Positions 42,962 through 60,084 of a DNA stretch of 64,000 bases are shown here, in pieces (position 1 is the stretch's first letter; the number at the start of each line of letters is the position of its first letter). This stretch comes from Natronoarchaeum mannanilyticum (GTDB lineage: Archaea; Halobacteriota; Halobacteria; Halobacteriales; Natronoarchaeaceae). The stretch spans positions 164,909 to 228,908 of the forward strand of contig NZ_BAAADV010000008.1 in assembly GCF_039522665.1 (NCBI RefSeq), given 5' to 3'. The position numbers and the translations under genes were made by a program. Under the pieces are notes generated by a model. It worked only from the letters and a program-made list of their open reading frames with translations. It was not told the origin of the DNA and made no database searches.

Positions 42962-43058
42962 GCGAAGTGAACGTTTCGGCAGAGGAAGATGCTGAAACCC
43001 CTTGATATAGACCATAGACTGTTCTCATCCCTCTCCCTAATTCGGTGAAGGCTGGAAT

Positions 43059-43090
43059 GCGCCTCCGCCCCTCGGCGGGCGCTCAAAAAC
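43059..43090 (-). promoter_or_regulatory. GC-palindrome promoter element, orphan copy
   Basis: In minus orientation a TTTTTGAG tract is followed by CGCCCGCCGAGGGGCGGAGG. The same layout precedes eight other genes of the element, but here only a 25-codon frame (MRTVYGLYQG...) follows, so the controlled gene has been lost. Confidence 0.65.
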
Positions 43091-43131
43091 TTAACCAACG
43101 CACCAGCCAATGGTCCCGGTTTGTTGGTTAA
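43091..43131. promoter_or_regulatory. Inverted-repeat element, copy b
   Basis: Arms TTAACCAACG (43091-43100) and TGTTGGTTAA (43122-43131), spacer 21 bp. On the minus strand it sits directly upstream of the orphan T-tract/GC-palindrome, the same order as at copy d. Confidence 0.8.
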
Positions 43132-43188
43132 TCATTAGAGCTCCGGATGCGGCACCCATCGCCCACCGACACCGATATCGACCGTTGC

Positions 43189-43992
43189 CTACGACGATTC
43201 CTGTTGGGAGATCGCCGTGTCCAATCGATTCCAGACCATCTCGAACGCCGGCGGATCACCGGTCAGGTCTGGCAGCGTGGTCCCCCACTGGTGGCGGATC
43301 GTCTCTTGTTGCTCGGCGGGGAGGCCGTCCGTCAGATCAACGGTGAGTCCATCGTGGTCGCACTTTGCCTCGAAGGCGGGTCCCACGTCGGCAAAGTTGA
43401 TCGTGACCGAATCGGTTTCGAGCAGCTGATAGAGGTCGTAGTAGTCACGGGCGGCCCCGCGCTGATAGATCGCACGGAGCTTTTCGGCGAAGATCTACTC
43501 GACGCTGTACGCTTGGAGATCGAATTCGGGAACGTCTTCGTACGCGTGAGTGTGCTGAACAGGGTCGAAGGCGACATGCTCGTCGACCATCACGTCGATG
43601 CTGGTCGTGTTGGGGTGGTTGAGGACGGCCCGGTACTGAATGCTGATGTCGACGTAGTGGGTCGGATAGTGGTCCTGCTGGGATTCGTGGTGCTCTCGAA
43701 TCTCGAATTCGATGCCAGATCGGTCGGCGATCGTATCGAGAACCGTCCGTAGCTCTCGCTTGGATCCCTGATACTCCCCTTCGACACCGAAATCGAGGTC
43801 CTCCGAGAATCGCCACGATTGCGGAAAATACAGCTTGGACAGCGCGGTCCCGCCTTTGAACAGGAGATTGTCACCGTAGTCGCTCGCGAAGATGCCCCAA
43901 AGGAGCCACGAATTGACGTAGTTCTTTTCGGCGTACCCTTGCCGAACGCCCAGTTCGCGGGCGAGGATCCTGAGCCGGTCCTGACTGATCAT
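43189..43992 (-). pseudogene. AbiEii-type nucleotidyltransferase toxin with an in-frame stop
   Basis: Reading through one TAG (43495-43497) gives a 267-codon protein: N-terminus MISQDRLRILARELGV, the nucleotidyltransferase core LLFKGGTALSKLYF and RFSEDLDFGVEG, then YSVE-stop-IFAEKLRAIYQRG and an intact C-terminal half. AbiEii proteins continue EEIFAEKLRA here, so a sense codon became TAG. The core motifs needed for catalysis are before the stop, but the C-terminal helices are not translated. The 5-bp gap to the AbiEi-like gene upstream shows the classical AbiE operon order. Confidence 0.87.
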
Positions 43993-43997
43993 CGCAA

Positions 43998-44828
43998 TCA
44001 GGACTCCGTCGGTTCCAGCGTGGCTGGCTCGACGTTGACCCGGAGGCGATACGCGCTGTCGGTCGATCCGGTGTCAGGCCGCGTCGGATCTAGTAGGGAA
44101 TAGCCGCTCGTGAACGACGCGACGAGTTCCTCGCGGGCGGGGAGATCGATGCCCAACTGGTCGGCGAGGTAGACGATCCGCTTGGTCGCAGCGCCGTTGT
44201 CGAGGCGCTCTATGTACTCGCCGACGGTGTCCCAGTCGCAGCCCCGTTCGTCGGCGGCTCGCATCGCGGTCGCGAGTTCCCGAAGGCCACCGCAGAACTC
44301 GGGGTGGTCCGCACAGTCAACCAGCGTCTTCTCCAGGTCGCTGACCTGAACGGTCGTACCCTCGATGGATGTCGGATCAAATCCGAAGAACTTCCGCTCG
44401 GTGACTGTGGTAACGCGGTACGGAACGCCGTGGGTCTCCCGGCTTTGCGCCCGGGTCGGCGTGACGACGTACACCGTCCGGGGGACCTGTTCGGTCAGCC
44501 CGTGGTGGCTGAGGGCGCTGTAGTAGCCGATGTACATCGGCTCGGCGACGTGGGCAGCAATGAGGTACTCATGGGTTGTGTATACGGACTCCTCACCGGC
44601 AGCGAGTGGAATGATGAGATACGTGCCTGGGAAGAGCCGATCGAGCCAGCCCTTCTCGGTGAGCCGGGAGGCGATCTCTCGGGCAGTGTTTGGGGCGACC
44701 TCGAGCGTCGTCTCGATGTCGTCGACGGAGATGATCTGGTGGCCTGAACCGGCTAGTCGTGAGAGGAGTCGACTTTCTCGAGTCGAGAGTCCCTGGCGTA
44801 CATCTTTCGATTGCTCTATTGTACTCAT
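43998..44828 (-). CDS. AbiEi-family antitoxin/transcriptional regulator
   Basis: 276 residues. N-terminal winged helix (VDDIETTLEVAPNTAREIASRLTEKGWLDRLFPGTYL) then the AbiEi C-terminal region (HEYLIAAHVAEPMYIGYYSALSHHGLTEQ). In AbiE systems this protein binds its own promoter and counteracts the AbiEii toxin. A TATA-like TTTATACTC lies about 30 nt before the ATG and inverted-repeat copy c about 80-120 nt before it. Confidence 0.9.
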   Translation of the reverse strand: MSTIEQSKDVRQGLSTRESRLLSRLAGSGHQIISVDDIETTLEVAPNTAREIASRLTEKGWLDRLFPGTYLIIPLAAGEESVYTTHEYLIAAHVAEPMYIGYYSALSHHGLTEQVPRTVYVVTPTRAQSRETHGVPYRVTTVTERKFFGFDPTSIEGTTVQVSDLEKTLVDCADHPEFCGGLRELATAMRAADERGCDWDTVGEYIERLDNGAATKRIVYLADQLGIDLPAREELVASFTSGYSLLDPTRPDTGSTDSAYRLRVNVEPATLEPTES

Positions 44829-44907
44829 ACCTGCGCTTCTTACATAGAGTATAAACTCGGGCCTGCTTTAGCCTTGCGACTGCCCTGGATGACGGAGACG
44901 AACAGAA

Positions 44908-44948
44908 TTAACCAACGAAATAGAGACTCAGAACCGAACGTTGGTTAA
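44908..44948. promoter_or_regulatory. Inverted-repeat element, copy c
   Basis: Arms TTAACCAACG (44908-44917) and CGTTGGTTAA (44939-44948), 21-bp spacer. Located upstream of the AbiEi gene and immediately after the end of the ArdC-like gene. Upstream of the presumed TATA box, so it suits an activator or long-range operator. Confidence 0.8.
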
Positions 44949-44952
44949 CGAT

Positions 44953-45885
44953 TCAGGCGCCGTCTTCGATCACGTCGATGAGCTCTTCTGCTGTGGTACT
45001 GATCCGGTCGAGACGGTCGCGAGCGACTTCCGGATCGTCTGACTCCCATGCAGCTAGGTAGAATGCAGAGCCACTGGTGTCGAGCCCGCAGTACCGCCCA
45101 ACAACGTACGCGACCGCCTCGGCCTCGACTTCGCGTTTCGTCCGCTCGGTATCGTCGTCGACGTCGAAGTGGAGCAGGGCGTGCGCGTACTCGTGGATCA
45201 GCGTCCGCGCAAGGTCAGCCTCGTTCTCTCGATCACGCACCTCGACGAGCGGCTGAACGTCGACGAGGCTCAACTGCTCGCAGATGCCTTTCGCCTCGCC
45301 GTGGGTCCACTCCTCTTCTGAAACGATTCGCACTGTTACGCCGAGCTCATCAGCAGCGGCAATCAGCCGAGAAACCAGATCGCCGGCGTCTCCGGTCGCT
45401 TTCGTGTCGAGGTCGGGAAGCGGTTCTCCCTCGATCTGGGAGACGTCGAACACCGGCGCGGGCTTGAATCCGACCAGGCCCTCAGACCACTCCTCGGGTG
45501 GCGTCGCGTCGTACTCACAATCGCTGTCCTCGTGGTAACTCGGCGAGTTTTCGCACTCCGGGCACTGTTTCGTGATGATCGGCGCCCAGATCCAGATGGC
45601 CGACTCCCCCTCCGTGACGTGGCGGTCGAACTCCTCCTGCCACGTACGGTAGCCGGCCACCCGGGTTGCCTCGGGACACTGGCGTTTGATGAGGAGCGTG
45701 TTCCGGTAGGAGTAGTCGTGGAAGCGACTCTGGACGTCGAGCCACTCTTGGAACTCTTCGCTGGCCTGCGCGTCGTCGACGCCGACGACGAGCTCGTCGA
45801 TCCACTGTTCGATAGTGCTGTTCATCTCGTCTGATCGCGTGTCGGTCTGATCGAAGGAGACCGACGAATCACTGGTCGTAGCCAT
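44953..45885 (-). CDS. ArdC-like antirestriction protein/zincin metallopeptidase
   Basis: 310 residues. N-terminal ArdC-type ssDNA-binding region (~20-130; FHDYSYRNTLLIKRQCPEATRVAGYRTWQ) contains an extra CPEC pair, and the C-terminal half is a zincin with HEYAHALLHF (HExxH). ArdC proteins of plasmids protect entering DNA from host restriction. The start follows a T-tract/GC-palindrome promoter element. Confidence 0.87.
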   Translation of the reverse strand: MATTSDSSVSFDQTDTRSDEMNSTIEQWIDELVVGVDDAQASEEFQEWLDVQSRFHDYSYRNTLLIKRQCPEATRVAGYRTWQEEFDRHVTEGESAIWIWAPIITKQCPECENSPSYHEDSDCEYDATPPEEWSEGLVGFKPAPVFDVSQIEGEPLPDLDTKATGDAGDLVSRLIAAADELGVTVRIVSEEEWTHGEAKGICEQLSLVDVQPLVEVRDRENEADLARTLIHEYAHALLHFDVDDDTERTKREVEAEAVAYVVGRYCGLDTSGSAFYLAAWESDDPEVARDRLDRISTTAEELIDVIEDGA

Positions 45886-45930
45886 TGTGTTCTCCGAATC
45901 AAGTTCACGGCGACTGCATCAGTTCAGACC

Positions 45931-45961
45931 GCGCCGCACCCCTCTGGGGCGTTCAAAAAAT
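45931..45961 (-). promoter_or_regulatory. T-tract/GC-palindrome promoter element
   Basis: Minus strand: TTTTTT, GAAC, then GCCCCAGAGGGGTGCGG, 46-76 nt before the ATG of the ArdC-like gene. The T-rich tract suits a TATA box and the palindrome would fall between it and the transcription start. Confidence 0.65.
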
Positions 45962-45972
45962 CGCTCTGTCGG

Positions 45973-46320
45973 TCAGCGGAGCTCGTGGCGTTCGTTCGCG
46001 AAGCCGACCGTGACGAGGTACTCGAGGAACTCGTCGAACAGCTCGATGTCGCTAGGCGTGTCGGTCGCAAGGTGACGTGCCCACTCGATGGCCCATTGAA
46101 AGGCAGGATCCGTGCCGCCCTTGCCGTGGATATACCACCACCGGGCCGCTTTCAGCACGACCAACGGATTCGCCGGCGGCTGCTCACCGGCGAGCCCACG
46201 GGTGATGGACTCGATTTCGTCGGGGACGTCGGCGGGATTGACCTCCGCTGATTGCGTGTTGTCGATATCGACCGGGATTTCGTCGATTGAGACGTTGTCG
46301 GGACTCTGTTGTTGACTCAC
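45973..46320 (-). CDS. Small helical protein of unknown function
   Basis: 115 residues, GTG start giving MSQQQSPDNVSID. An acidic N-terminus is followed by a compact Trp-rich domain (AARWWYIHGKGGTDPAFQWAIEWARHL). No family recognised. The start is decided by the promoter element (46349-46380) and the loss of protein-like character upstream. Co-directional with the ArdC-like gene 87 bp downstream. Confidence 0.7.
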   Translation of the reverse strand: MSQQQSPDNVSIDEIPVDIDNTQSAEVNPADVPDEIESITRGLAGEQPPANPLVVLKAARWWYIHGKGGTDPAFQWAIEWARHLATDTPSDIELFDEFLEYLVTVGFANERHELR

Positions 46321-46348
46321 TGGAAGTCACCTCAGAGGGCTTTCGAAG

Positions 46349-46380
46349 GAGCCCTCACCCTCTCCGGGGGTATGAAAAAC
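46349..46380 (-). promoter_or_regulatory. T-tract/GC-palindrome promoter element
   Basis: Minus strand: GTTTTTCATAC then CCCCGGAGAGGGTGAGGGC, 29-60 nt before the GTG start at 46320. Inverted-repeat copy d lies 13 bp further upstream. Confidence 0.65.
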
Positions 46381-46393
46381 TGAGAAGCAACTG

Positions 46394-46435
46394 TTAACCA
46401 ACAGAGGGGGATTCTTCGTGGAGATTGTTGGTTAA
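46394..46435. promoter_or_regulatory. Inverted-repeat element, copy d
   Basis: Arms TTAACCAACA (46394-46403) and TGTTGGTTAA (46426-46435), spacer 22 bp. Upstream of the T-tract/GC-palindrome of the 46320 gene on the minus strand. Confidence 0.8.
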
Positions 46436-46444
46436 TACCGGAGC

Positions 46445-46666
46445 TTACCCCTCGTCTTCACGCAGTTCTTCAGCTTTCCACTTGAGTCGACGCAGAATCT
46501 GCGTCCGATTCTGGTGGGTATTCTCGTAGGCAACACACTCCCGGAGTGTCTCCATATCGGGAATTGTCACGATACCGGCCTCGACCAATCGATAATCCGG
46601 TGTTTCGAGACGCTTCGCAGGTGGGAATTCGTCGTCACTTCCATCGCTGATTGTGGACTGTTCCAT
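46445..46666 (-). CDS. Small protein of unknown function
   Basis: 73 residues; MEQSTISDGSDDEFPPAK start, then a helix-rich body (LRECVAYENTHQNRTQILRRLKWKAEEL). Resembles small haloarchaeal plasmid proteins, with no family assigned. Preceded at 7 nt by the shared promoter element, which supports it as a real gene. Confidence 0.65.
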   Translation of the reverse strand: MEQSTISDGSDDEFPPAKRLETPDYRLVEAGIVTIPDMETLRECVAYENTHQNRTQILRRLKWKAEELREDEG

Positions 46667-46672
46667 CTCTGT

Positions 46673-46702
46673 AGCCCTCCACCCCTCGAGGGCGAGAAAG
46701 AC
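46673..46702 (-). promoter_or_regulatory. T-tract/GC-palindrome promoter element
   Basis: Minus strand: TCTTTCTCG then CCCTCGAGGGGTGGAGGGC, 7-36 nt before the ATG at 46666. The closest of all copies to its start codon, implying a very short leader. Confidence 0.6.
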
Positions 46703-46731
46703 AGAACAGCGATCACATCACCGGCGCAGCG

Positions 46732-47892
46732 TCAGGCCATCGCGTCCTGGAACCGTTCGCGAAGCGCATCCTCGCGCTCCTCGAATTGCTCTACCTTTTC
46801 CTGCAGGTCATCACTGACCCGTTCGATGCTCGCGAGCGCTCGCTCGCCGGCCAGCGACGCCTGCGACCCGTCGTCGCCGTCCGCCTCTAACTGCTGCTCG
46901 TACGCCTGCTCGACGCGCTCGATCGTTCCCTCCGGGTTGACCAGGATATCGTTGGCGATGCGGACGTACTGATCGAGGGACGCTCCCTCCTTCCCTTGGA
47001 AGAAGTGGGTGAGCGCGTACGTTGCACCGGAATGCAGCGTCCACATGTCGATCTCGAAGGGGGACGCCGCATTGGCTTCTGCATCGCCGGCGGCACGCTC
47101 GGCCAGGTAGTCCGGGAACCCCAGCAGGGTGTAGAACTCCGTGACGGTGAACGGGAGCTCCGAGAAATCGAGCTTGATGTCCTGAGCGTCACGGATGAAC
47201 TCGAAGAGGTCGTCGGCGACGAGTTCAACCTGTGCGAGGAGCTCCTCCCACCAGGTGCGGAAGTTCCGAACGTCGCCGACGTGTTTGATGACCTCCTTGT
47301 CGGTGAGCGAGCGCATCGTATTCGAGCAGTAGCCGTCCTGGGCGAACCCCTCCACGTAGACGGCGTGCTCGCCGAAGAAGTCGTAGCCCGACGTGACGCC
47401 CATCGTGATCAGGTCCGACCGGTCGGGAAGGCGCACCTCGAGGCCGTCGAACATGATGTCCATGTGGACCTCGCCGCCGCCCCGGTAGCGCCGAATCTCA
47501 CCGAACATCACCTCACCCAACGGCGTCCCGTCGATGGTCTCCTCGCGGAGGACCTCCTCCAGCGGACCGTAGACGTCGACAGGGTTGATAATCGCGTAAC
47601 TGTTAGTCGGGATGTGAAATAGTGGATCCGTCTCGGCGTCTTCTTCTTGGGCCTGCGAGTGGGCGCGACTCGGCTCAACGAGCGCGTTGAACCGCTCCGT
47701 CTCAACCCACTCGTCAGTGTAAGGGTTCTGGTACGCCACGGTCGTCTCGACGGCCTGCGGAAGATCACGAACCGCCTCGGCGAAGGTCACGGGGTCTGCA
47801 TCCCCGTGACGATCTCGGTACCACTCGGGTAGTTCGGTGTCGGTACGTCCATCGACGCCAGCGAAGATGGTTCTGGACTCTGGGTCTTTCAT
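46732..47892 (-). CDS. Large acidic element-encoded protein (DUF932-like, tentative)
   Basis: 386 residues from the ATG of MKDPESRTIFA. The middle (YAIINPVDVYGPLEEVL, DIMFDGLEVRLPDRSDLITMGVTSGYDFFGEHAVYVEGFAQDGYCSNTM) resembles the DUF932 family of plasmid and phage proteins, which sit near replication and defence genes. The C-terminus is a predicted coiled coil (LQEKVEQFEEREDALRERF). Function unknown. It has its own promoter element 52-81 nt upstream. Confidence 0.75.
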   Translation of the reverse strand: MKDPESRTIFAGVDGRTDTELPEWYRDRHGDADPVTFAEAVRDLPQAVETTVAYQNPYTDEWVETERFNALVEPSRAHSQAQEEDAETDPLFHIPTNSYAIINPVDVYGPLEEVLREETIDGTPLGEVMFGEIRRYRGGGEVHMDIMFDGLEVRLPDRSDLITMGVTSGYDFFGEHAVYVEGFAQDGYCSNTMRSLTDKEVIKHVGDVRNFRTWWEELLAQVELVADDLFEFIRDAQDIKLDFSELPFTVTEFYTLLGFPDYLAERAAGDAEANAASPFEIDMWTLHSGATYALTHFFQGKEGASLDQYVRIANDILVNPEGTIERVEQAYEQQLEADGDDGSQASLAGERALASIERVSDDLQEKVEQFEEREDALRERFQDAMA

Positions 47893-47906
47893 CTCGGTCA
47901 CCTCAG

Positions 47907-48209
47907 TTGAGGAATCCTCGTCGACTCGCGACTGTACCGTCTCGCGCCCTGCGCCCCTCCCGGGCGCAAAAACAACGTCTCGCGAACTACTGCCCGAACT
48001 GCGGGGCAATCGCCAGCACCAGTCACACTAAAACAGAGCGGCTGGAAGGCGGGCCGGTCTGTACCGACTGTGCGGTGACCGAACGGTTCGCGCTGAAGAC
48101 GAAGTACTTCTACGACGAAGACAATCTCGAGACGTTCCGTGAGGAGTACGTCGTCATGCTGCTCCACGAGAAGGCGATGGAAAACAAGCGATTAGCCGGG
48201 GGAGCGTAG
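47907..48209 (+). CDS. Zinc-ribbon protein, possibly with a replaced N-terminus
   Basis: 100 residues: NYCPNCGA then VCTDCAV form one zinc ribbon, followed by a helical tail (DNLETFREEYVVMLLHEKAMENKRL). The only usable start, ATG at 47907, places about 28 Arg-rich residues before the ribbon, and those codons overlap the promoter palindrome of the divergent gene (47944-47973). The natural N-terminus may have been lost in a recombination; the true start is unclear. Confidence 0.6.
   Translation: MRNPRRLATVPSRALRPSRAQKQRLANYCPNCGAIASTSHTKTERLEGGPVCTDCAVTERFALKTKYFYDEDNLETFREEYVVMLLHEKAMENKRLAGGA
47944..47973 (-). promoter_or_regulatory. T-tract/GC-palindrome promoter element
   Basis: Minus strand: GTTTTTGCG then CCCGGGAGGGGCGCAGGGC, 52-81 nt before the ATG at 47892. 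The palindromic core GCGCCC/GGGCGC is perfect. Confidence 0.65.
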
Positions 48210-48345
48210 TTGCGACGCTACTGGTCATCATCAGCCTACTCCTGCTTGGCGGCATCATCTAAACTGGCTGCATTCTCTCACACTAGTTCAGCAACGACCA
48301 GTGCAAAAGGCCTCTGATACTCCTCTTTTACGGCAGATGAGTGGA

Positions 48346-48645
48346 TCATTCGGCTGGTACCGCATTTTCTGTCTCGGAGAAGTACTGCGCTTCCCACTCA
48401 CGTCGTGCTTCGAGTTCGCGTCTAGCCCGTTTCGTCAGTGCGTACTCGTTCGTACGTTTGTCCTTCTGACTCTTTTCGACGAGTCCCATACTTACCAACT
48501 CGTCTAGATTAGGGTATAGCCTGCCTGCATTGATATCCTTCTCATAGTATTCGGCGAGCGCTGATTTCACTGCAAGGCCGTGAGGCTTGTCAAGCCCGGC
48601 GATTACATATAAACAGTCTCGCTTAAATGCGGTGAGATCATGCAT
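48346..48645 (-). CDS. PadR-family transcriptional regulator (1 of 3)
   Basis: 99 residues, a single winged helix: MHDLTAFKRDCLYVIAGLDK, then YYEKDINAGRLYPNLDELVSMGLVEKSQKDKRTNEYALT. The short form lacks the C-terminal dimerisation extension of larger PadR proteins. Closely similar to the genes at 56236 and 56941. Its upstream region to 48720 is A+T-rich, a likely self-regulated promoter. Confidence 0.9.
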   Translation of the reverse strand: MHDLTAFKRDCLYVIAGLDKPHGLAVKSALAEYYEKDINAGRLYPNLDELVSMGLVEKSQKDKRTNEYALTKRARRELEARREWEAQYFSETENAVPAE

Positions 48646-48780
48646 GTCTTCAGATTTTGTTGGCGTCTGGTATAAATAACATTCCTAATAATACTGGTTG
48701 TAAATCTGTTAACCTTTTCCTAGGAGATTTGGCCAACGAAGACGACCCTGCGAATAACTGAGGCTCAGGAAGATCAGGTG

Positions 48781-49686
48781 CTATGAGCCAGTCAGTTCCT
48801 CTCTGTGAGACTTGGGGACCGGTCCATGACGAACTGTTTTACATACCTTGCACTCCCAGATCGGTTGTCCGGTCCACGTCTCATCAGGGATCGATTCGTA
48901 GGTTTTGAATTGATGGTCGGTCGTCCTCCCGCATTTCTGACAGTCGAGGTGATCCGTCGTTGGTACCGTCGAACGTTGGCTATCCGACTTCTCCTCGCCA
49001 GCTGTCTTGGTAAGCCCGATCGCTGGAACCAACCATGCCTTCTCGTCGGTGTCATCCAGGATCTCACTGAGGCATGATTCGTCGCGGATGGCGTTTCCAC
49101 ACTGATCGTAGAGCCGCGTCGGGGGCTGCTGGTGCTCCAACGCTTCGTGCGCACCACACCCTGTTCGGTCGCAGGCGGCTGTGAGCAGTTGCTCACCCGC
49201 TGTTGAGTCAGCTTGTACCGCGTCGGGGAGCGAAGGCCATTGGTCGGCCAGTTGGCGCGCAGGCATCTCGTCAAGATCGTAGATGAGCGTGTAGTCGTCG
49301 ACGGCCGGCTCCGCCTCGTTGGCGGTGAGGAGGTTCGCAGCGGCCCCGCCCTTCGCGACGGCGCCGTGGAACGTGGTCGACTTGACGACCATATGGACGA
49401 TCCCGAGGAACGTCACGTCCGCCGTCTCGTCCGTACTAGCGGGGTCATCACCGATGTGGTTGTTGAGACAGAACCGACATTTTGTCTGGCCAGCTGGGAT
49501 CGACGTCCCACAGGACTGGCACTCTCTGCCGGTGTCCGTCGGCTCATCGGGATAGTTACCTGTTCTCGTTGCACCGCGTTGGTACTTGGGTTCGCTGTCA
49601 TACCCATCGCTAAGTTGCTCGTCCGGAATGTGGGACGCCTCACCGATCGGCCGCAGTTCCTCGAAATCAGAGTATCTGTTATGCAT
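48781..49686 (-). CDS. Multi-zinc-ribbon protein of haloarchaeal plasmids
   Basis: 301 residues from MHNRYSDFEELRPIG (an ATG 12 codons upstream is possible). Two zinc-binding regions: CQSCGTSIPAGQTKCRFC near residue 55 and CQKCGRTTDHQF...CKVC near the C-terminus, with a Cys-poor alpha/beta centre. Relatives are common on haloarchaeal plasmids and are sometimes labelled biosurfactant protein 1; I see nothing here that supports that label. Function unknown. Confidence 0.75.
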   Translation of the reverse strand: MHNRYSDFEELRPIGEASHIPDEQLSDGYDSEPKYQRGATRTGNYPDEPTDTGRECQSCGTSIPAGQTKCRFCLNNHIGDDPASTDETADVTFLGIVHMVVKSTTFHGAVAKGGAAANLLTANEAEPAVDDYTLIYDLDEMPARQLADQWPSLPDAVQADSTAGEQLLTAACDRTGCGAHEALEHQQPPTRLYDQCGNAIRDESCLSEILDDTDEKAWLVPAIGLTKTAGEEKSDSQRSTVPTTDHLDCQKCGRTTDHQFKTYESIPDETWTGQPIWECKVCKTVRHGPVPKSHREELTGS

Positions 49687-49959
49687 CGCTTGAGTACTGG
49701 TTCCCTCGACTTCGCATTTCAACTTCAGGGGCAGACCGTTGTTTCACGAGTTTTCGAGGTAGATACCTCGAGCCTCAACTCAGAGGAGGCTGCCAGCTCT
49801 GCTTGATTGTACCGGCACCCATTGCGGTACCAGACAAACGATATCCGAGGTTGTGGCTGCGCGCGCAGCGACGTCAGGAGCGAGCACGGAGCGGTGGGTG
49901 GGGCGGTGGGGTTTGGGTCGGTCCGGCGCACAGCAAAAAAAGAAGGCTGCTCCGACTGG

Positions 49960-50859
49960 CTATTCTTCCCACCACCGCCCGCGCTCGGGGAAGTGAACGG
50001 TGCTCCATCCCGTGACGGCCAGTGAGACACGTCCGTTGTACCAGTTCTTGGCCGCCTCGTGAATGCGCACCCGCTCGCCTTCCTCAATCCACGGTGCGTC
50101 TGATGCCTTCCAGATCGTCACCTTCGTCTTTCCGCTCTCGTCCGCGACCAGCCCGACCTGTTGGATCGCCGGCGAGTCACTGTCCCAGAGCGTCTCGACA
50201 CGCCCCTCGATGCTCACCGTTTCGCGATCTATCTCGTCCAGGGCGTCGATCGGCACGACCTGGCCTGGCGCCGTCTGCAACTCCTCGAACACCTGGATGA
50301 CCGCGCTCGTGAGACTCATGCCGTCGACGACCGCCTCGGCCAAGCATCGACTGATCGCCGCGCGCGCCCAGCCATCCAACTGCTCCGCGAGTCGATCAGC
50401 TTCCGCGTTCACCGTCGCTAGTTCATCCTGGGAGAGTTCCGCCCGGGGATCATCTCGTTCGGGGTCGGCCATCGGTTCCACGCTCGCGGCACGCTTCTGG
50501 AACTCCCGGCGGCGCTTCCGACTCCCCTCCGCGACTACTGCTCGCGTGCGCTGCTCGCGACCGTCCTGCGTCCCGAACTCGGCTTGGGCACTGATGCGCT
50601 CTAGTTCGGCTTCCCGCGCCCGAATGCGCTCCTCCTGTTCGAGGGGGACACCGTGAATCCGCTCGTTGCTCGTGTCCGCGATCCCGTCCGGGTGGTTCGC
50701 ATCCACCTTCGCCTGCGTCTCCTGCTCGACCGCGGCCTCGAACGCCGGCGTCTCGTCGACGACCGGGAAGCCGTCTTCATCGACCGCCTGTTCGCCCGCG
50801 TTCTCGAATGCCTGTTCATCGACCGAAACGACCTTTCCGCTAGCGTTGTTACTGGACAT
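49960..50859 (-). CDS. RPA-like OB-fold single-stranded-DNA-binding protein
   Basis: 299 residues from the ATG of MSSNNASGKVVSVDEQ. N-terminal ~130 residues are charged and helical (EERIRAREAELERISAQAEF). The C-terminal ~90 form an OB fold of the replication protein A type (VSIEGRVETLWDSDSPAIQQVGLVADESGKTKVTIWK... GWSTVHFPERGRWWEE). Probably coats single-stranded DNA during replication or transfer of the element. The stem-loop-rich non-coding tract lies directly upstream. Confidence 0.85.
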   Translation of the reverse strand: MSSNNASGKVVSVDEQAFENAGEQAVDEDGFPVVDETPAFEAAVEQETQAKVDANHPDGIADTSNERIHGVPLEQEERIRAREAELERISAQAEFGTQDGREQRTRAVVAEGSRKRRREFQKRAASVEPMADPERDDPRAELSQDELATVNAEADRLAEQLDGWARAAISRCLAEAVVDGMSLTSAVIQVFEELQTAPGQVVPIDALDEIDRETVSIEGRVETLWDSDSPAIQQVGLVADESGKTKVTIWKASDAPWIEEGERVRIHEAAKNWYNGRVSLAVTGWSTVHFPERGRWWEE

Positions 50860-50903
50860 TGGTATCTCTCCAAGGTACCACTGAAGGCGCTCACGCGCCG
50901 ACA

Positions 50904-50925
50904 CCGCGATGCTACTACATCGCGG
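50904..50925 (+). terminator. Hairpin followed by T-run
   Basis: CCGCGATG, loop CTACTA, CATCGCGG, then TTTT on the plus strand: an intrinsic-terminator shape. No plus-strand gene ends here, so it may terminate a short transcript or belong to the promoter region of the minus-strand RPA-like gene. Confidence 0.5.
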
Positions 50926-50957
50926 TTTTCCGACGACAACGACCGACAGACCCATCT

Positions 50958-51012
50958 GCGCGCTCTCGCTCGCGCCTTCGCGAGCGCCCCCTGGGCGCGA
51001 GCGAGAGCGCGC
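50958..51012. repeat. Perfect 19-bp inverted repeat with 17-nt loop
   Basis: Left arm GCGCGCTCTCGCTCGCGCC (50958-50976) and right arm GGCGCGAGCGAGAGCGCGC (50994-51012) pair without mismatch; the loop can form additional pairs. Far stronger than chance even in GC-rich DNA, and able to extrude as a cruciform. Confidence 0.85.
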
Positions 51013-51075
51013 CTGAGGCGGACGCCCATCCAGCACCGCGCGCCGACCCGCCCGGAGCGAGCGGCCAGCGCATTC

Positions 51076-51156
51076 CCCGTTTCGCCCGCGACGCAACCAC
51101 GTCCGTCGCGGGTCGGAGAGTCCCGGAAGCCTCCGGAAGTCCGGGACCGAAACGGG
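51076..51156. ncRNA. Predicted three-way-junction fold (possible structured RNA or DNA site)
   Basis: Outer stem CCCGTTTCG (51076-51084) with CGAAACGGG (51148-51156) encloses two hairpins: CCCGCGACG (51085-51093) with CGTCGCGGG (51104-51112), and TCCCGGA (51121-51127) with TCCGGGA (51140-51146). All three stems are perfect. Strand and transcription are unknown; a DNA-level role as an origin is equally possible. Confidence 0.45.
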
Positions 51157-51478
51157 TGAAGCGCTGGCGCCGAAGGCACATGCATTTTAGCCCGGCAGTC
51201 CGCCCGCTACTGCAGGCAGACCGCCCGGAATGGTCGGTCGCGAGTGACGTGGCGGGCGGCAGCGGCGAGCGGGGCGGGCCGGGACGGACACACCAGTCTA
51301 ACCGGTCACGTCGCTCGGTGACACCATCTACCGGCCTGGCGGACTCAGAAAGGGCGAGGCCGCCTCGACCGTCCCCCGACCCCGCAAGCACCGCAGGGAC
51401 GAGGAGCGAAGCGTGGGTCGCGGGACGTCGAGCGGCCGAGGGCTTTCAGGGAGGTCTCCGATGTTGACCGCAGTCCAG

Positions 51479-51742
51479 CTACTGGTCAGTCGAATCAGGC
51501 TCTTCCTCGGCAAGCAGAACGTCGACGCTCTCTGGCGTCACCGATAGTCGGATTCCTTCCACAGTGAACTGTACTTCCACGCTTCCACTCGACAAGTCCA
51601 CGATCTGCTCGAGTGCTTCCACGTCGATAGCGTCATACAGCTGATACTCGTCTCGATCCAACCCACGCGCTTCGAGCGTCTCGATTATCTCGACGACGAG
51701 GTCTGGCGATGCCCCAGGCCCCGTGCTTGAAGAGCAATTCAT
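51479..51742 (-). CDS. HalOD1 output-domain protein
   Basis: 87 residues covering one HalOD1 domain: LVVEIIETLEARGLDRDEYQLYDAIDVEALEQIVDL then VEVQFTVEGIRLSVT. This haloarchaeal domain is usually an output module of two-component signalling, and stand-alone forms are common. ATG start giving MNCSSSTGPG. Confidence 0.85.
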   Translation of the reverse strand: MNCSSSTGPGASPDLVVEIIETLEARGLDRDEYQLYDAIDVEALEQIVDLSSGSVEVQFTVEGIRLSVTPESVDVLLAEEEPDSTDQ

Positions 51743-51863
51743 CTTAACGCTCGACGCTAAGGATTCCTAGCATTTAAAGACCGAGGAGTCAACTGTGGTT
51801 TCTTGTAGATTTTCTGGTTGACGCAGCGCGTTTGGGATAGAGTCGGCGCAACCACAACTGATT

Positions 51864-52124
51864 ATGCGCTTTGACGCCGACTGGATGTCGCGTGCCGATG
51901 ACCGCATCCTAGAGCATCTCTCTGAAGCCGGTCCAGATACCCCGAAGGAGATGGCGGACAGCGATCGAGTTCGCTTCTCCCGCCAACATATCAATGCCCG
52001 CTGCAAGACGCTGGTCGAACATGGTCTCCTCGTCCACCTCGGCAACGGCGTCTACGATATCACGCGAACGGGAGAGCAGTATCTCGCCGGAGACCTCGAC
52101 GCTCGTGACCTCGAAGCTGACTGA
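51864..52124 (+). CDS. PhiH1-repressor-like winged-helix regulator
   Basis: 86 residues: MRFDADWMSRADDRILEHLS, then the helix-turn-helix MADSDRVRFSRQHINARCKTLVEHGLLVHLGNGVYDIT. The sequence follows the repressor family named for the haloarchaeal phage PhiH1 very closely. A compact DNA-binding repressor, likely keeping a mobile-element promoter silent. Convergent with the PIN-domain gene (2-bp gap). Confidence 0.88.
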   Translation: MRFDADWMSRADDRILEHLSEAGPDTPKEMADSDRVRFSRQHINARCKTLVEHGLLVHLGNGVYDITRTGEQYLAGDLDARDLEAD

Positions 52125-52126
52125 AC

Positions 52127-52696
52127 CTACCCTTCCAGAAGTGCGACTAACTGGGCGACGTACGGGCTGTTGTCCCAGCTCCGGTGGGGGCTGATCACGC
52201 TAAGTAGCGTTCGCGCCTCCTCGTGGGTCATATGGCCGTTCCGGGCGTAGTCACAGATAAGCCGCGGTGTCGGGACGATACGCGGCCCTTTGAGCACAGC
52301 GTGAATCAGTGGGAAGTTCGTGCCGCCAAATTCGTCCGTGAGAAAGCCGTCGACGTCAAGCGCGTTCGCGAGGATGATGCCATCAGTTTCGCCGTCATCG
52401 AGGCCGAACGTCGGTCGCGCGTCCGGGGTGTCGTCGCGTGCATACGGATCTTCGACCGTGTAGTGGCCACGGGCCGCGAGGACGTTATTCGCGGCTGCAG
52501 CGTGGATATCCTGATACTGCGTGATGTCGCGGAGTTCTGCGACTACTTCCGGAGGGACGAACACGTCACAGGAGGTGAGCAGGTATTGGAACGGGTCGGG
52601 AACATCGGTACCGATGGCTGCATCCGCCCGGGGCACCGCGAGACTGACGAGCGCGCTCGTGTCGGCGACGACTGTTCGCAGCCGTGGACCGCTCAT
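52127..52696 (-). CDS. PIN-like domain protein (putative toxin)
   Basis: 189 residues. Acidic PIN residues are visible: VVADTSALVSLA (first Asp), VPPEVVAELRD (Glu), GLDDGETDGIILANALDVDGFLTDEFGG (Asp and Asp pair). Longer than typical VapC (~130). The ATG overlaps the stop of the RHH gene upstream (ATGA), the standard antitoxin-toxin order. Expected activity is RNA cleavage. Confidence 0.85.
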   Translation of the reverse strand: MSGPRLRTVVADTSALVSLAVPRADAAIGTDVPDPFQYLLTSCDVFVPPEVVAELRDITQYQDIHAAAANNVLAARGHYTVEDPYARDDTPDARPTFGLDDGETDGIILANALDVDGFLTDEFGGTNFPLIHAVLKGPRIVPTPRLICDYARNGHMTHEEARTLLSVISPHRSWDNSPYVAQLVALLEG

Positions 52697-53049
52697 CGAT
52701 CGTCGTCGACCGTCGTCACATCCCCATCGTAGACGTCGACGTCATCGGGGGTAGCGAGATCGAGTGGTTCGTCCTCGAGATCCGCTTTGAGGAGGCGGAG
52801 TCGCTGGGCGGTCTCGGCTCCCACCAGTTGCTTCACTGTCTCGAACTCGAGTTGGTCGTCGTAGTACTTCGTCGCAACTAATTCTTGAAACGTCTCACTG
52901 TCGGCAGTGTCTTCAATGTACTCTCGGATGGCATCGACGAGGAGATCCGTCCGGTCTTTGTCGAAGAGATCGGCGATGGCATCGAGCCGGTCGACGAGAT
53001 ACTCCGGCGACTGGAAGTGCACCCGTCGCGGATCGTCGCTTGCGCCCAT
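52693..53049 (-). CDS. Ribbon-helix-helix antitoxin-like protein
   Basis: 118 residues. The N-terminal strand-helix-helix RRVHFQSPEYLVDRLDAIADLFDKDRTDLLVDAIREYIED is an RHH DNA-binding unit; the C-terminal half is acidic and probably wraps the PIN partner. Four-base overlap with the PIN gene. A palindrome-like GTGCAAGTTTTGCACA at 53052-53067, just upstream of the start, may be its own operator. Confidence 0.85.
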   Translation of the reverse strand: MGASDDPRRVHFQSPEYLVDRLDAIADLFDKDRTDLLVDAIREYIEDTADSETFQELVATKYYDDQLEFETVKQLVGAETAQRLRLLKADLEDEPLDLATPDDVDVYDGDVTTVDDDR

Positions 53050-53147
53050 TGTATGTGCAAGTTTTGCACATAGACGGATAACGGTTTCGGCGTCTGCACA
53101 GAGCTTGCACAGTAACGCCCGTGGAATAGGAAGAGTTTACGCCGATC

Positions 53148-53477
53148 TCACTCGTCGTCCTGTGCGTTCAGTTCGTTGAGGAACTGGCCGGCGGTCGTCC
53201 CGATACGAACACCGTCGACGTTGCGTACCTCAAGGTCTTGGGTGGCGGTCCGGAAGGGCGTGCCGTCGACAAGGACGCGGTGCATGACGGTCCGGACAGG
53301 GGTGGTACCGTACGTGTCGACGACAGTCGCCATCTGTTCGTCGAGATGCCCGTCGTGGTGATCCGTACGGGGATGCTGCGCGCGCTCGAATACAAGTTCG
53401 ACCACCTCGTCGACCGATGCATGCTCGGAATTCCCGGTTCGTTCACGAACGGCGTAGAGGTCCTTGGAATCAGACAT
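53148..53477 (-). CDS. Small protein of unknown function
   Basis: 109 residues from MSDSKDLYAVRERTG (ATG two codons upstream also possible). Mixed alpha/beta composition with no Cys; the C-terminal half (VMHRVLVDGTPFRTATQDLEV) looks like a small beta domain. Conserved-looking but unassigned. Located after the RHH/PIN pair in the same direction. Confidence 0.65.
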   Translation of the reverse strand: MSDSKDLYAVRERTGNSEHASVDEVVELVFERAQHPRTDHHDGHLDEQMATVVDTYGTTPVRTVMHRVLVDGTPFRTATQDLEVRNVDGVRIGTTAGQFLNELNAQDDE

Positions 53478-53700
53478 CAGCACTCACCCTGGGCCCCAGT
53501 GTCAGTCGTCGATGGCTCCAGTCGTCGCTACTGGCGAATCTCAGCAAGGGAATCTTCGAGCGTGATCGAGACCCTGCAGCGGGGCAGTCCATATCATTCT
53601 GGATGTCATCCCCGGTGTTCAACGTACTGGGACTGCGTAAGTCCGTTACATCCGCGAGTGTAGAAAGCGACCACAGGCAGTGCTACACTAGCACATTGGC

Positions 53701-54030
53701 TCAACAGTCGGCGACCAGATGCTCCTCGAGGTCGCGCGTCCAGTACGTCGCGAGCCCACCCGGACTACAGCGAGCGCACAGCTGCAACGAGCCTTCCAGA
53801 TGCCCCAGTTCAACCCGGAACCGCGTGAGCGCCGCGAGCGTGTCGACGACGAGTCCACAGCCGTCACAGGCGACGTGATCGCGCTCGTCGGGATCCGGCT
53901 CCGTCTGGATCGCGCAGTCGGCGCAGATCGGGTGGGTAACCCGCTCGTCCTGGCCCCAGGAGTGGGCCTCGCCAGTCTCGGTACCGGGCGGGGCGTCGCA
54001 GAACGCGCAGCCAGTGAGCGTCTGCTGCAT
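53701..54030 (-). CDS. Four-CxxC zinc-ribbon protein
   Basis: 109 residues from MQQTLTGCAFCDAPPG. Four Cys pairs: CAFC, CADC, CDGC and CARC, giving two zinc sites. Starts inside the stop of the upstream (broken) gene as TGATG, so the two were translationally coupled before the frameshift. Function unknown; such proteins are frequent on haloarchaeal plasmids. Confidence 0.78.
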   Translation of the reverse strand: MQQTLTGCAFCDAPPGTETGEAHSWGQDERVTHPICADCAIQTEPDPDERDHVACDGCGLVVDTLAALTRFRVELGHLEGSLQLCARCSPGGLATYWTRDLEEHLVADC

Positions 54031-54319
54031 CACTCGCCCTCCGCGTCGGCGTCGCGGCCGGCCGTCCAGCCACGGTGGAAGACGGCCAGCTGCGTGGCTG
54101 AATCGAACGCGGTGCCGCTCGGCTCGTGAACCGAACTTGGTCTTCAGGAACCGGAGTGACGACGTCCGCGTCGACAAGGTCGTTGACCAGGCGCTGGGCC
54201 GTCGCGTCGTTGATGTCCACCGTGTCGACGCCGGCGGCGTCGCGGTCCTGGGCGAGCAGCGCTTTCTCGAACTGTTCGAAGTCGGCACTTGTATCGTCGT
54301 GAGGATATGGATCAGTCAT
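54030..54319 (-). pseudogene. Small element gene broken by a single-base deletion
   Basis: Reads MTDPYPHDDTSADFEQFEKA ... DADVVTPVPEDQV, then changes frame to VHEPSGTAFDSATQLAVFHR and ends GRDADAEGE-TGA. Restoring one base near 54143 (CG in place of a full codon after GTT) yields a 96-residue protein whose stop overlaps the ATG of the zinc-ribbon gene. Left as it is, translation runs into a low-quality Arg-rich frame to 53864. It keeps its promoter element, so the mutation is probably recent. Confidence 0.75.
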
Positions 54320-55038: not shown

Positions 55039-55962
55039 TCAGCTTTCCTTCACAAGTGTGTCGCGATGCGTTCGCAACGTCACCGGCGAGACGCCCGCAG
55101 CGTCAACCACCTGCGCTTGCGTTAGCTCTTGGTCACACTCGCAGGCGGCTTTGTAGATGCACGCGCCAGCGAAGCCTGACGGACTCACACCGGTCGTGAT
55201 CGCTTCGTCCTCTGCTGTCTCTGCAAGCCTTTCGGCGCGACGCCGGACGGAATCGGGAATGTCCAGCTCGGAGGCGAGCCGTGGAACGAACATGCTCGGT
55301 GTCATCGGCTTCGCCGGGAGCCCGAGTTCCGCGTTTATCGTCTTGTAGCAGTTCGTCACTCGCGACTCTCTGACCTGTGCGACCTCGGTGACGTCGTCAA
55401 TCGTCCGAGTACGTCCGTTACACCGACACGCCCCGTGGACGCTCGCTGCGGCCATCCCCTCGATCGATCGCCCGAGGAGGAGGTCCGACGACTGAGCGCT
55501 TCGGAAGAGGGCACACGCCTGGTCACGAATCGTCTCGGACAGGCCGAGTGCGCTGGTGATCCGTCGTACTTCGCCCAGGCCGTGGGAGAGATTGCGGTCC
55601 GCTTTCGATTGCCACTTCCCTCGGGTCTGTTCGCGCCGTAGCCGGTCGAGTTGCTGTCGCTTTCGACCAGAAAGTACGTTCCCGTTCGCATCGGTCCCGC
55701 GCCCAATCTTCGTCGAGAGCCCACGATCGTGTCGAGCGACAGTGAGTGGTGCGCCCGTTCGCTCTCGTTCCTCTTGCTCGAATGACCGCCACTCAGGTCC
55801 GCGATCGATCTGTTGTTCGTCGATGACGAGGCCACAGTTCTCACAGACCGTCTCTCTCGCGTTCGTTGTGACTCGTCCACCACACTCCGAACACTGGTTC
55901 GTTGTTACCTCCTGCTGTACGTCTTCGTCGAACGTCGTCGCGTAGATATCACTAGTCGCCAT
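55039..55962 (-). CDS. tfb: Transcription initiation factor IIB (element-borne TFB)
   Basis: 307 residues from MATSDIYATTF (an ATG three codons earlier is possible). N-terminal zinc ribbon CSECGGRV...CENCGLV, B-reader/linker with ERTGAPLTVARHDRGLSTKIG, then two cyclin repeats (~110-200 and ~205-300). Haloarchaea carry several TFBs with different promoter preferences, and a copy on a mobile element may direct RNA polymerase to the element's own promoters. It has one of the shared promoter palindromes upstream. Confidence 0.92.
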   Translation of the reverse strand: MATSDIYATTFDEDVQQEVTTNQCSECGGRVTTNARETVCENCGLVIDEQQIDRGPEWRSFEQEERERTGAPLTVARHDRGLSTKIGRGTDANGNVLSGRKRQQLDRLRREQTRGKWQSKADRNLSHGLGEVRRITSALGLSETIRDQACALFRSAQSSDLLLGRSIEGMAAASVHGACRCNGRTRTIDDVTEVAQVRESRVTNCYKTINAELGLPAKPMTPSMFVPRLASELDIPDSVRRRAERLAETAEDEAITTGVSPSGFAGACIYKAACECDQELTQAQVVDAAGVSPVTLRTHRDTLVKES

Positions 55963-55993
55963 TTGTCTCACCGAAGTTCTGAGGTTCCCTTTT

Positions 55994-56235: not shown

Positions 56236-56532
56236 ATGCACGATTTGACCGGATTCCAACGCGACCTGCTGTACGTGATCGCGGGCCAGGACAAACCACA
56301 TGGTCTTGCCGTCAAGGACGAACTCGAGGAGTACTATGAGCAGGAAATTCAACACGGCCGATTGTACCCGAATCTCGATTCTCTGGTCGAGAAGGAACTC
56401 GTTGAGAAGGGAGAACATGACCGGCGGACGAACTACTACGAGCTGACGCAACGTGGCCAGCGCGAACTGGAAGCACGGCGGGAGTGGGAACAGCAGTACC
56501 TCAACGAGGCAGAGGTAGACCTCCCAGCGTAA
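56236..56532 (+). CDS. PadR-family transcriptional regulator (2 of 3)
   Basis: 98 residues: MHDLTGFQRDLLYVIAGQDK then YYEQEIQHGRLYPNLDSLVEKELVEKGEHDRRTNYYELT. The closest relative in the window is the gene at 48346. Transcribed divergently from tfb, with a 270-bp intergenic region that probably holds its operator. Confidence 0.92.
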   Translation: MHDLTGFQRDLLYVIAGQDKPHGLAVKDELEEYYEQEIQHGRLYPNLDSLVEKELVEKGEHDRRTNYYELTQRGQRELEARREWEQQYLNEAEVDLPA

Positions 56533-56940: not shown

Positions 56941-57243
56941 ATGTCTATGAGCCTCTTCGAGCTCACGGCGTTTCAGCGCGACCTGTTGTTCATCATTGCC
57001 ATGGTAGACGAGCCATCCGGGCAGGAGCTTAAAGACCAATTTGAGGAGGAAACGACAGCTACCGTAAATCGTGGGAACATCTATCCGAATCTCAATACTC
57101 TTACTGAGAGAGGGTTCATCAACAAAGAGAGCCGTGATTGCCGAACAAATTGCTATTCTCTTACTCAGCAAGGCCGCTCTTGTCTCCATCAACGTCACAA
57201 GTGGGAGCAAGAACACTTAGCTGGTGCCCAACAGACAGTCTGA
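56941..57243 (+). CDS. PadR-family transcriptional regulator (3 of 3)
   Basis: 100 residues: MSMSLFELTAFQRDLLFIIA, then QFEEETTATVNRGNIYPNLNTLTERGFINKESRDCRTNCYSLT. The most diverged of the three, and lower in GC than its neighbours. An ATG two codons later is the alternative start. Confidence 0.9.
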   Translation: MSMSLFELTAFQRDLLFIIAMVDEPSGQELKDQFEEETTATVNRGNIYPNLNTLTERGFINKESRDCRTNCYSLTQQGRSCLHQRHKWEQEHLAGAQQTV

Positions 57244-58388: not shown

Positions 58389-59651
58389 TCAGTCACTCTC
58401 AAACAACTGCTTTGTCCGTCGCCAGATGGACGCTGTTTCTGACCCGCTATTGTCCTCTCTTGTGGAAGTCGACTGGTCTTCGTGCACCTGCTGCCGCTCT
58501 CGGTCACGATCAGTACGTTCTGGCGTAAGCCGCTCGATTTCTGCTTCGAGTTGGTCAATACGCTCGTTTTTCTGTTCGAGCCGTGCCTCGAGCTCGTCGA
58601 CACGATCAGCCAGCAGCCGATTTTTCTCTGTTAAATACACCCAGGTGCGCTCCGAGCTATCGCTGCCTTCGTCAGCAGCCGGCTTCTCTGTACTACTGTT
58701 GGGGCGATTTGACTCGTCGGTGGCGTCTGGATCGTAGAACTCGGAGGTATTCGCAATCGCCCGCTCGATGGTCTTTTCACCGTACGTCGACCCGTCGGCG
58801 TAGTGGACTTCGTCCCATTTCGGTCGGATGAGTCCGGACTGTCGAAACAGCCGGTCCATCTGTGTCTGCTCGCCACCGGTCCAGAACGCCAGCATACAGC
58901 ATAGTGCCATATCGGCTTCAGACTGACTTTCGTAGCTGCCTGTATGTCCGTTCCAGAGGCGCTCGAACTTCGCCCCGTTTGAGGCGTTCGTTGCTTTCTC
59001 TATGAGTTCCTCGTCCGTGAGGTCGGTACTGACGTCGCTGCCCTTGTCTGTCTCAGCGTCTTCGATATCGGTCCTACTGTGACCGGACTCAGACGCTTCG
59101 CCGTTGGTGTCCTGTATGTACTCGCTGTGAATCGCCACGAGTGCGTCTTGTCGATGAGCGATACGCGAGGGCGTCCCGTCGACGTGATCACCAGTAACTG
59201 TGAAGAAGCGCGCGTTGTCGTACAGTTCGACGCTTCCTTTGCGGTTTCGTCCGTCGGGCAGGTCACCTTTGGTCAGCACGTGGTAGCCAGTTCCGGACGG
59301 CGAGATCTCGGTGAAGGAGTCGAGTCGTTTGATGATGTCTCGAGCCGTGTTGTCCACGTCTTCGCTTTCCGGGTCGCGGCAGTCGTCGAGATCGACGCCG
59401 ACGTACGGATCGTCTTCTGTAAACACGAAGCCGACGCCGTCGGCGTCCCCAGTTTCGGCGTACTCGAGGGCTGTCGCGAACTTGGCCCACGTGTCCGGGT
59501 CTGTTGATGATGCGAACGAACCGGTGCTCGGCGTTACTGGTATTTTCGTTGGCTTCCCGTCGCGGTGCTCTTCGCGCCAGCACACCCACTGCTCTCGGGT
59601 TCGAATCCCGGCTGGCAATGCGTCGCTGTCGATGATCGTTGTTTCACTCAT
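58389..59651 (-). CDS. Prim-Pol (AEP superfamily) replication protein with coiled-coil tail
   Basis: 420 residues. N-terminal ~1-165 is an archaeo-eukaryotic primase-type catalytic domain: metal Asp pair in YVGVDLDDCRD (D87, D89), nucleotide motif SPSGTGYHVL (117-126), and VELYDNARFFTVTGD as the third motif. It is similar to phage and plasmid prim-pols of the NrS-1 type. Residues ~215-310 (NGAKFERLWNGHTGSYESQSEADMALCCMLAFWTGG) match the helical domain that follows such cores. Residues ~345-390 form a coiled coil. No helicase domain is fused. Preceded by the shared promoter element and followed by nothing co-directional for 600 bp. Confidence 0.85.
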   Translation of the reverse strand: MSETTIIDSDALPAGIRTREQWVCWREEHRDGKPTKIPVTPSTGSFASSTDPDTWAKFATALEYAETGDADGVGFVFTEDDPYVGVDLDDCRDPESEDVDNTARDIIKRLDSFTEISPSGTGYHVLTKGDLPDGRNRKGSVELYDNARFFTVTGDHVDGTPSRIAHRQDALVAIHSEYIQDTNGEASESGHSRTDIEDAETDKGSDVSTDLTDEELIEKATNASNGAKFERLWNGHTGSYESQSEADMALCCMLAFWTGGEQTQMDRLFRQSGLIRPKWDEVHYADGSTYGEKTIERAIANTSEFYDPDATDESNRPNSSTEKPAADEGSDSSERTWVYLTEKNRLLADRVDELEARLEQKNERIDQLEAEIERLTPERTDRDRERQQVHEDQSTSTREDNSGSETASIWRRTKQLFESD

Positions 59652-59775: not shown

Positions 59776-60084
59776 TCAGCGACATAGACCGATCGTTCTC
59801 ACCTGGGTGGCACGCATCAGTTCCAACGGTGTGCCCCCCTTCTTTCTTAGTTGGTTTTTGCCGTAGCGACGGTCGTGATCGGGCATATTCGCTACAGTAG
59901 CCCGGCTTACGGCAGGGATATTACCGTAAGCCGTCGATGCCGTAGTACCGTCGCTACTGTAAGTGCCGTAAGACCGTTCTGGCGTGCGCCTCTCGGCTAG
60001 TTCCTCAGCGAGTGATGCTGTCTGATCTGTCCCGATCGTCAAGGTACCGTCTCCGCGACAGTCTCGATACCACTCCCGGATCAT
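59776..60084 (-). CDS. Small protein coupled to the large ATPase
   Basis: 102 residues from MIREWYRDCRGDGTLTIG. Its ATG overlaps the stop of the large ATPase (ATGA), indicating coupling. Rich in Thr/Ser/Tyr in the middle (ERSYGTYSSDGTTASTAYG) with no recognised domain. A longer reading upstream enters the ATPase gene and is rejected. Confidence 0.55.
   Translation of the reverse strand: MIREWYRDCRGDGTLTIGTDQTASLAEELAERRTPERSYGTYSSDGTTASTAYGNIPAVSRATVANMPDHDRRYGKNQLRKKGGTPLELMRATQVRTIGLCR

Follow-up and report, generated by a model that had tools for sequence, protein, structure and literature searches.

A conserved hairpin-rich tract before SSB genes of haloarchaeal elements as a probable cis element of transfer or establishment

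To our knowledge nobody has worked out how incoming conjugative DNA starts up in a new archaeal cell. The locus described here, a gene-free and hairpin-rich tract of ~570 bp (50,881-51,448) in a window of 64,000 nucleotides from Natronoarchaeum mannanilyticum, bears on this question. A first-pass annotation of the window had noted a dense array of stem-loops between 50860 and 51478 and had proposed a replication origin, a transfer origin or a structured RNA. The interval between two minus-strand genes, an SSB-like coding sequence that starts at 50859 and a HalOD1 gene that stops at 51479, is indeed free of genes, and the observation extends further than was foreseen, since the tract is conserved across haloarchaea. 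We consider it probable that the tract is a cis element of transfer or establishment in the broad sense.

Architecture and distribution of the tract

The highly conserved left arm (50881-51063; coordinates within the tract are given without strand unless stated) begins 21 bp before the SSB-like start codon. A 22-nt plus-strand hairpin with an 8-bp stem, CCGCGATG-CTACTA-CATCGCGG (50904-50925), is followed by TTTT at 50926-50929, and a perfect 19-bp inverted repeat with a 17-nt spacer (50958-51012; arms 50958-50976 and 50994-51012) ranks among the most conserved blocks of the tract. Both structures are present as annotated. The annotated three-way junction of 81 nt is also present, but its description omitted the outer stem CCAGCGC...GCGCTGG, and the larger hairpin, which stands upon a CCAGC/GCTGG stem, spans 51065-51167. 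This hairpin is an exchangeable module (type A103, see below). It is followed by a conserved linker (51168-51189) that contains the AT-rich CATGCATTTTA (some distant loci lack the AT part), by a second variable hairpin flanked by two GCCCGG boxes (51190-51228), and by a conserved block beginning GCCCGGAATGGTCGGTCGCGAG (51222-51282) that in some relatives is duplicated around cargo. The structures claimed for the whole 600 bases are thus real, with the correction that the last ~115 nt (about 51334-51448), the right end of the tract, are a dispersed repeat as well (CCCCGCAAGCACCGCAGG...GAGCGAAGCG); elsewhere in the genome, contigs C1, C3, and C5 carry six partial copies of it between them. Against 200 dinucleotide shuffles per strand, the fold of 51050-51185 has z scores of -5.3 (plus strand) and -4.0 (minus strand); for the whole tract, folded as DNA, the score is -6.4 against 20 shuffles. 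Judged by these shuffles the structures are beyond chance.

The whole tract has matches in at least 92 of 146 relative genomes and in 161 of 72,556 plasmid records, the organisms among the matches listed being haloarchaea, and zero matches in the phage records searched. The left arm alone matches 68 of the 146 genomes, with 73-95% identity in most of the matches listed, across families. For comparison of loci 94 regions around selected whole-tract matches were used, and 85 tracts were kept for alignment after five overlapping loci and six identical tracts had been left out. The two arms are kept while the middle varies among loci, and across 80 aligned tracts there are blocks of at least 95% identity. 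Several contigs carry two to four tracts each. Full-text literature searches, the scope of which left most subscription papers outside, returned no publication that we recognised as describing the tract.

The exchangeable module and covariation of stems

With CCAGC and GCTGGCG (or close variants) as boundaries, a pattern search found a hairpin in 83 of the 85 tract loci, and stricter delimiting of the module succeeded in 80 of the 85. Five sequence types occur at this place, i.e., type B (~55-70 nt), D (66-85 nt), A90 (90-91 nt), A103 (103-112 nt, the type of the window), and E (163-168 nt), of which A90 and A103 are multi-branched. The CCAGC...GCTGG base stem is retained while the body of the module changes. 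Among 26 distinct type B modules 95.5% of 619 cells pair, compared with 38-54% when the structure is slid by one to three columns, and six pairs have changed on both sides, a number reached by none of 500 shuffles. Watson-Crick double changes, summed over the five module types, amount to 28 pairs (7 of 22 pairs in B, 2 of 36 in A90, 4 of 38 in A103, 14 of 55 in E, and 1 of 26 in D). Covariation, which the first-pass annotation had named as a check on a structured tract, is therefore found. The covarying stems of the tract are compatible with RNA and single-stranded DNA alike, and they make a folded single strand of one kind or the other likely. The proposal of a structured RNA holds to this extent, but no match above a gathering score in Rfam goes with it: the range 34000-64000 has no family at its gathering score, and a search of 48000-54000 by E-value gave one match (E 0.93), far below the gathering score.

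Wobble pairs were considered as a means of calling the strand and were rejected. In the tract G.T exceeds A.C only if the structure is derived from the plus strand; this first excess reversed with the structure of the other strand and vanished on the pairs common to both strands, where G.T and A.C stand at 14:7 in the modules and 10:10 in the arms. Seen by eye, an inner-loop motif, GT(CC or GA)G opposite GCAAC, recurs among the modules and has its order reversed in type A. It is a lead only, since a pattern test failed to find it in 18 of 74 distinct modules; truncation of many E modules at that stage accounts for part of these misses. By eye the module type has no tie to the type of T4SS or primase, and loci L029 (type B), L030 (A103), and L060 (E) have nearly the same VirB4 (L numbers denote loci).

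In some loci (L174, L183, L187, L190, L194, L198, L208, and L214) a short form is found, in which ~95 bp of conserved AT-richer sequence (with CGAAAATAACC) is fused to the 3' half of a B module; it might act as a promoter for transcription into the right half. This form disposed of a lead to a nick site, taken from second partial tracts that start inside the apex of the B module in L043, L052, L058, and L125. A pattern search of 392 genomes and of 82 distinct occurrences in the locus set revealed that most copies starting at the apex share the same ~95-bp upstream sequence, and the lead was dropped, since these copies represent a second, short form of the tract. In a further arrangement, found to the right of the full tract, two direct copies of its right part enclose cargo of ~2-13 kb, and the second copy has no left arm (L043, L052, L054, L055, L058, L067, L078, and L119). 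In four of these eight loci the cargo protein is one that we take to be TnpB.

Neighbouring genes, transfer genes and small hairpins

The gene directly downstream of the tract (49960-50859, minus strand) encodes an RPA/SSB-like protein, as had been proposed. The OB fold is indicated by NCBIfam PRK07217 (E 1e-14, a partial match below the model's own cut-off) and PDB 2kbn (E 2e-9). On the other side a HalOD1-domain gene ends at the tract (51479-51742, minus strand; PF18545, E 4e-7). Retrieval by the SSB protein alone, ignoring the tract, gave 80 loci, of which 77 extend 400 bp or more upstream of the gene. The distance between the SSB start codon and the beginning of the left arm is 1-37 bp in 66 of these 77, and in 11 the arm is not there. 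A TFB-like gene replaces the SSB gene in nine loci (L032, L045, L056, L076, L115, L117, L118, L123, and L126). The window has an element-borne gene for TFB (transcription factor IIB) of its own at 55039-55971 (minus strand; PF00382, E 1e-34), and such genes lie left of the tract in many leading regions (L029 and others); given these genes, an element-specific promoter code is possible.

All genes called between 43495 and 50859 of the window are on the minus strand, and they include an AbiEii/AbiEi toxin-antitoxin pair (43495-44828) and an ArdC-like gene (44953-45885; ArdcN PF08401, E 7e-5, with a weak match to Peptidase_M78). On pMBLA003601, pNG600, and pJ7-1 the genes left of the tract are mostly co-directional and point away from it (SSB, TFB, DUF6735, DUF6166, DUF6610, and an ArdC-like gene, whose position is annotated as a DUF955 protein on pMBLA003601). 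This run extends to an oppositely oriented Orc1/Cdc6 gene, with opposite-strand cargo such as restriction genes among the leading-type genes. By analogy, the genes downstream of the tract resemble the leading region of bacterial conjugative plasmids.

The element also carries genes for DNA transfer. The DNA-pumping ATPase of the first-pass annotation is a VirD4-like coupling ATPase (60081-64000, minus strand, running to 64484 on the contig), identified through alignment with its pNG600 counterpart, which matches PF02534; it is followed by VirB4 at C8:229475-232597. The prim-pol, likewise real, is of the NrS-1 type (58389-59651, minus strand; PF22763, E 2e-32). Among the 146 genomes VirB4 has a match in 60 of the 68 with the left arm and in 23 of the 78 without it (odds ratio 17.9, p 3e-13, with kinship ignored). 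The orientation count used one left-arm cut (E<=1e-17, with one antisense self-hit removed) and VirB4 rows with E<=1e-92. VirB4 occurs on the same contig at 74 of 99 tract places and no more than 25 kb away at 53. Tract and VirB4 lie on opposite strands at 52 of these 53 (VirB4 to the right at 46 and to the left at 6) and, with the limit set at 60 kb, at 60 of 64. The sole exception within 25 kb is a TFB-type tract beside the T4SS of another element. The other 25 of the 99 places are on contigs without a VirB4 row, some of which are contig fragments. The complete 41-kb plasmid pJCM16430-01 has the tract, TFB, and Orc1/Cdc6, and tblastn detected neither VirB4 nor VirD4 on it; the tract is thus present on a plasmid without a detected T4SS, as the oriT of a mobilizable plasmid may be. 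No relaxase was named among the proteins scanned.

Smaller hairpins precede many of the later genes. These mini-hairpins, shared by the regions upstream of such genes, consist of GTTGTTTTTC, which is rich in T, and a loop resembling GAGAGGGGTGCG on a variable stem of 5-8 bp; their wobble pairs comprise 28 G.T and 18 A.C. One stretch of plasmid has 12 of them on the gene strand and 4 on the other, compared with a mean of 0.6 in ten shuffles. A covariance model, R1, was built from 23 mini-hairpins (3 from the window and 20 from pMBLA003601, pNG600, and pJ7-1). Searched against 59 whole genomes it has 134 matches at E<=0.01, spread over 19 of them; contigs that bear a tract account for 110 of the matches. 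The strand is opposite to that of the nearest tract for 108 of these 110 (76 of 76 on contigs with a single tract), and 75 of the 93 matches within 45 kb of a tract are on its SSB side. All 34 matches on the three training plasmids are on the gene strand, and 33 of them end -2 to 50 nt before an annotated start, a distance measured on plasmids that overlap with the training set. The window's genome has four matches, all on the minus strand and all within 43051-47981 of the window, at 43051-43095 (36.5 bits), before the ArdC-like gene at 45921-45966 (24.1 bits), before gene 46445-46666 at 46665-46709 (25.8 bits), and before gene 46732-47901 at 47937-47981 (40.6 bits).

Candidate functions

A bacterial precedent exists for folded DNA at such a place. 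According to PMC11541004, the Frpo/ssi sequences of bacterial conjugative plasmids (F, ColIb-P9) are folded non-coding DNA immediately upstream of plasmid SSB genes, present in several copies per element, and the T-strand of the surrounding leading region carries the genes for anti-defence, SSB and toxin-antitoxin functions; the word 'archaea' is absent from the main text of that paper. Features that the tract shares with Frpo/ssi are folded non-coding DNA before a leading-region gene that is typically ssb (66 of the 77 SSB loci), several copies per element, a neighbourhood rich in anti-defence genes on one strand, and the fixed orientation to the transfer genes (52 of 53 within 25 kb). It differs in its archaeal transcription machinery, its much larger size of ~570 bp, its exchangeable central module and the lack of recognisable promoter boxes, and its activity as single-stranded DNA is a prediction. 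The conservation of the tract, its covarying stems, its place before SSB or TFB, its association with VirB4 and orientation to it, the leading-type gene content and the enrichment of small hairpins on the same contigs and strand together argue, by analogy, that the establishment (leading) region of conjugative and mobilizable haloarchaeal elements begins with the tract, which would act in cis, most probably as a single-stranded DNA promoter or priming site. This is the explanation that we prefer, and we hold it tentatively. Several observations count against it: by eye no archaeal BRE/TATA box was recognised beside the SSB start, although the tract folds strongly; the wobble pairs of the tract and of the small hairpins show no robust strand asymmetry; the right ~115 nt are a dispersed repeat; 25 of the tract places have no VirB4 row on their contig; the R1 training set overlaps with the plasmids used for the start-codon distances; and pJCM16430-01 keeps the tract while small hairpins are absent from the 34 kb scanned (L032).

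The place of the tract and its partner genes suggest that it helps the DNA of the element to start up in a new cell. On the likeliest mechanism one strand would enter the recipient as single-stranded DNA, the tract on this strand would fold into hairpins, and the folded state would be the active one, serving as a landing site for the archaeal RNA polymerase or for the primase of the element. Expression of the next genes (SSB, TFB, anti-restriction and toxin-antitoxin), or priming of the second strand, could then precede the completion of double-stranded DNA, and additional landing sites of the same kind would be provided by the small hairpins in front of later genes. The strand transferred would, in the layout that fits, be the plus strand of the window, and with oriT at the far end of the leading region this layout fits the bacterial rules. 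A search for such an oriT in a conserved gap at the far left revealed only short conserved gaps and the orc1-polB region. It is tempting to speculate on two levels of control by folded DNA, with the large tract and its exchangeable module before SSB/TFB and the small, loop-conserved hairpins before later genes, all read from the incoming strand with the TFB of the element; this is a possibility to which we give limited credence. If true, it would be the first archaeal counterpart of single-stranded DNA promoters, having arisen without sequence similarity to Frpo, and it would imply single-stranded DNA conjugation and an as yet unknown archaeal relaxase.

The main rival is that the tract is oriT itself, where an archaeal relaxase of an unrecognised kind would bind the exchangeable hairpin and nick nearby, so that the SSB side enters first and the T4SS side last. 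Like a bacterial oriT the tract would be cis-acting, is hairpin-rich, and lies in fixed orientation at the border between transfer genes and leading-type genes; the 41-kb pJCM16430-01 exemplifies elements that have it although no T4SS was detected on them. Its sequence-variable hairpins would also suit the binding site of a nickase. A tract that is oriT does, however, reverse one bacterial rule. With the SSB side leading, the genes are transcribed away from the tract, contrary to the bacterial pattern in PMC11541004, and with the T4SS side leading it is the gene content that is reversed. Several contigs have 2-4 tracts, no nick site was found in the tract, and the apparent cluster of nick-site breakpoints is the short form described above. 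In archaea, moreover, passages in PMC9905601 and PMC12857230 state that conjugative plasmids have yielded no relaxase, and one in PMC3158045 that relaxases are very few. The proposed role in transfer is hence borne out as an association (co-occurrence with VirB4, fixed orientation and leading-region genes) but not as a proven oriT, and we regard an oriT as rather unlikely. Less likely still, the tract would serve the SSB/TFB operon as a regulatory region of the ordinary, double-stranded kind or as a structured 5' leader RNA. The constant spacing of 1-37 bp to the start codon would be expected of either, and the covarying stems are compatible with RNA; large structured RNAs of mobile elements in Rfam are likewise long and strongly conserved with covarying stems. 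On the other hand, the place and orientation of the tract are coupled to VirB4, the tract reaches the gathering score of no Rfam family, its modules of 55-168 nt are exchangeable, and no robust wobble bias points to the minus strand.

A replication origin, as also proposed at first, is very improbable and was rejected. The tract is rich in hairpins, lies beside an SSB gene on an element with a prim-pol, and is non-coding with inverted repeats like the Orc1/Cdc6- or RepH-linked origins found on the same haloarchaeal plasmids. Unlike these it has no neighbouring initiator gene on the five plasmids examined: RepH of pNRC100 is at 9402-12431 (9.4-12.4 kb) and the tract at 146379-147085 (146.4-147.1 kb), while pMBLA003601, pNG600, pJ7-1, and pJCM16430-01 have their own Orc1/Cdc6 genes away from the tract. 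The orc1-polB gap, 1.2 kb with ~27-bp inverted repeats and 82% identity between pMBLA003601 and pJ7-1 (L300:26322-27506 and L302:30951-32163), is on sequence grounds the better oriV candidate for this plasmid family. The least probable explanation is a passive, MITE-like hairpin repeat riding on plasmids. Its right end is a dispersed repeat and pieces of the tract flank cargo in some loci, but the fixed site before SSB (66 of 77 loci) already strains this explanation, the orientation to VirB4 is fixed, and modules are swapped while the base stem is never lost.

As a compact cis element of ~570 bp the tract marks these elements throughout the haloarchaea, with a predicted direction and companion hairpins, and it makes the question of establishment directly testable in genetically tractable haloarchaea. 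Plasmids that are mobilizable although MOB-suite classes them as non-mobilizable may become recognisable by it, and it is a bait for the missing nickase.

Two further features of the element may be mentioned. A DUF7558-like gene and a small conserved neighbour (53701-54319, minus strand), both uncharacterised and strongly conserved, are part of a pair of small genes that accompanies many tracts in the interval from HalOD1 to the primase. Finally, the one element of the window has three related small winged-helix (PadR-type) genes, at 48346-48645, 56236-56532, and 56941-57243.
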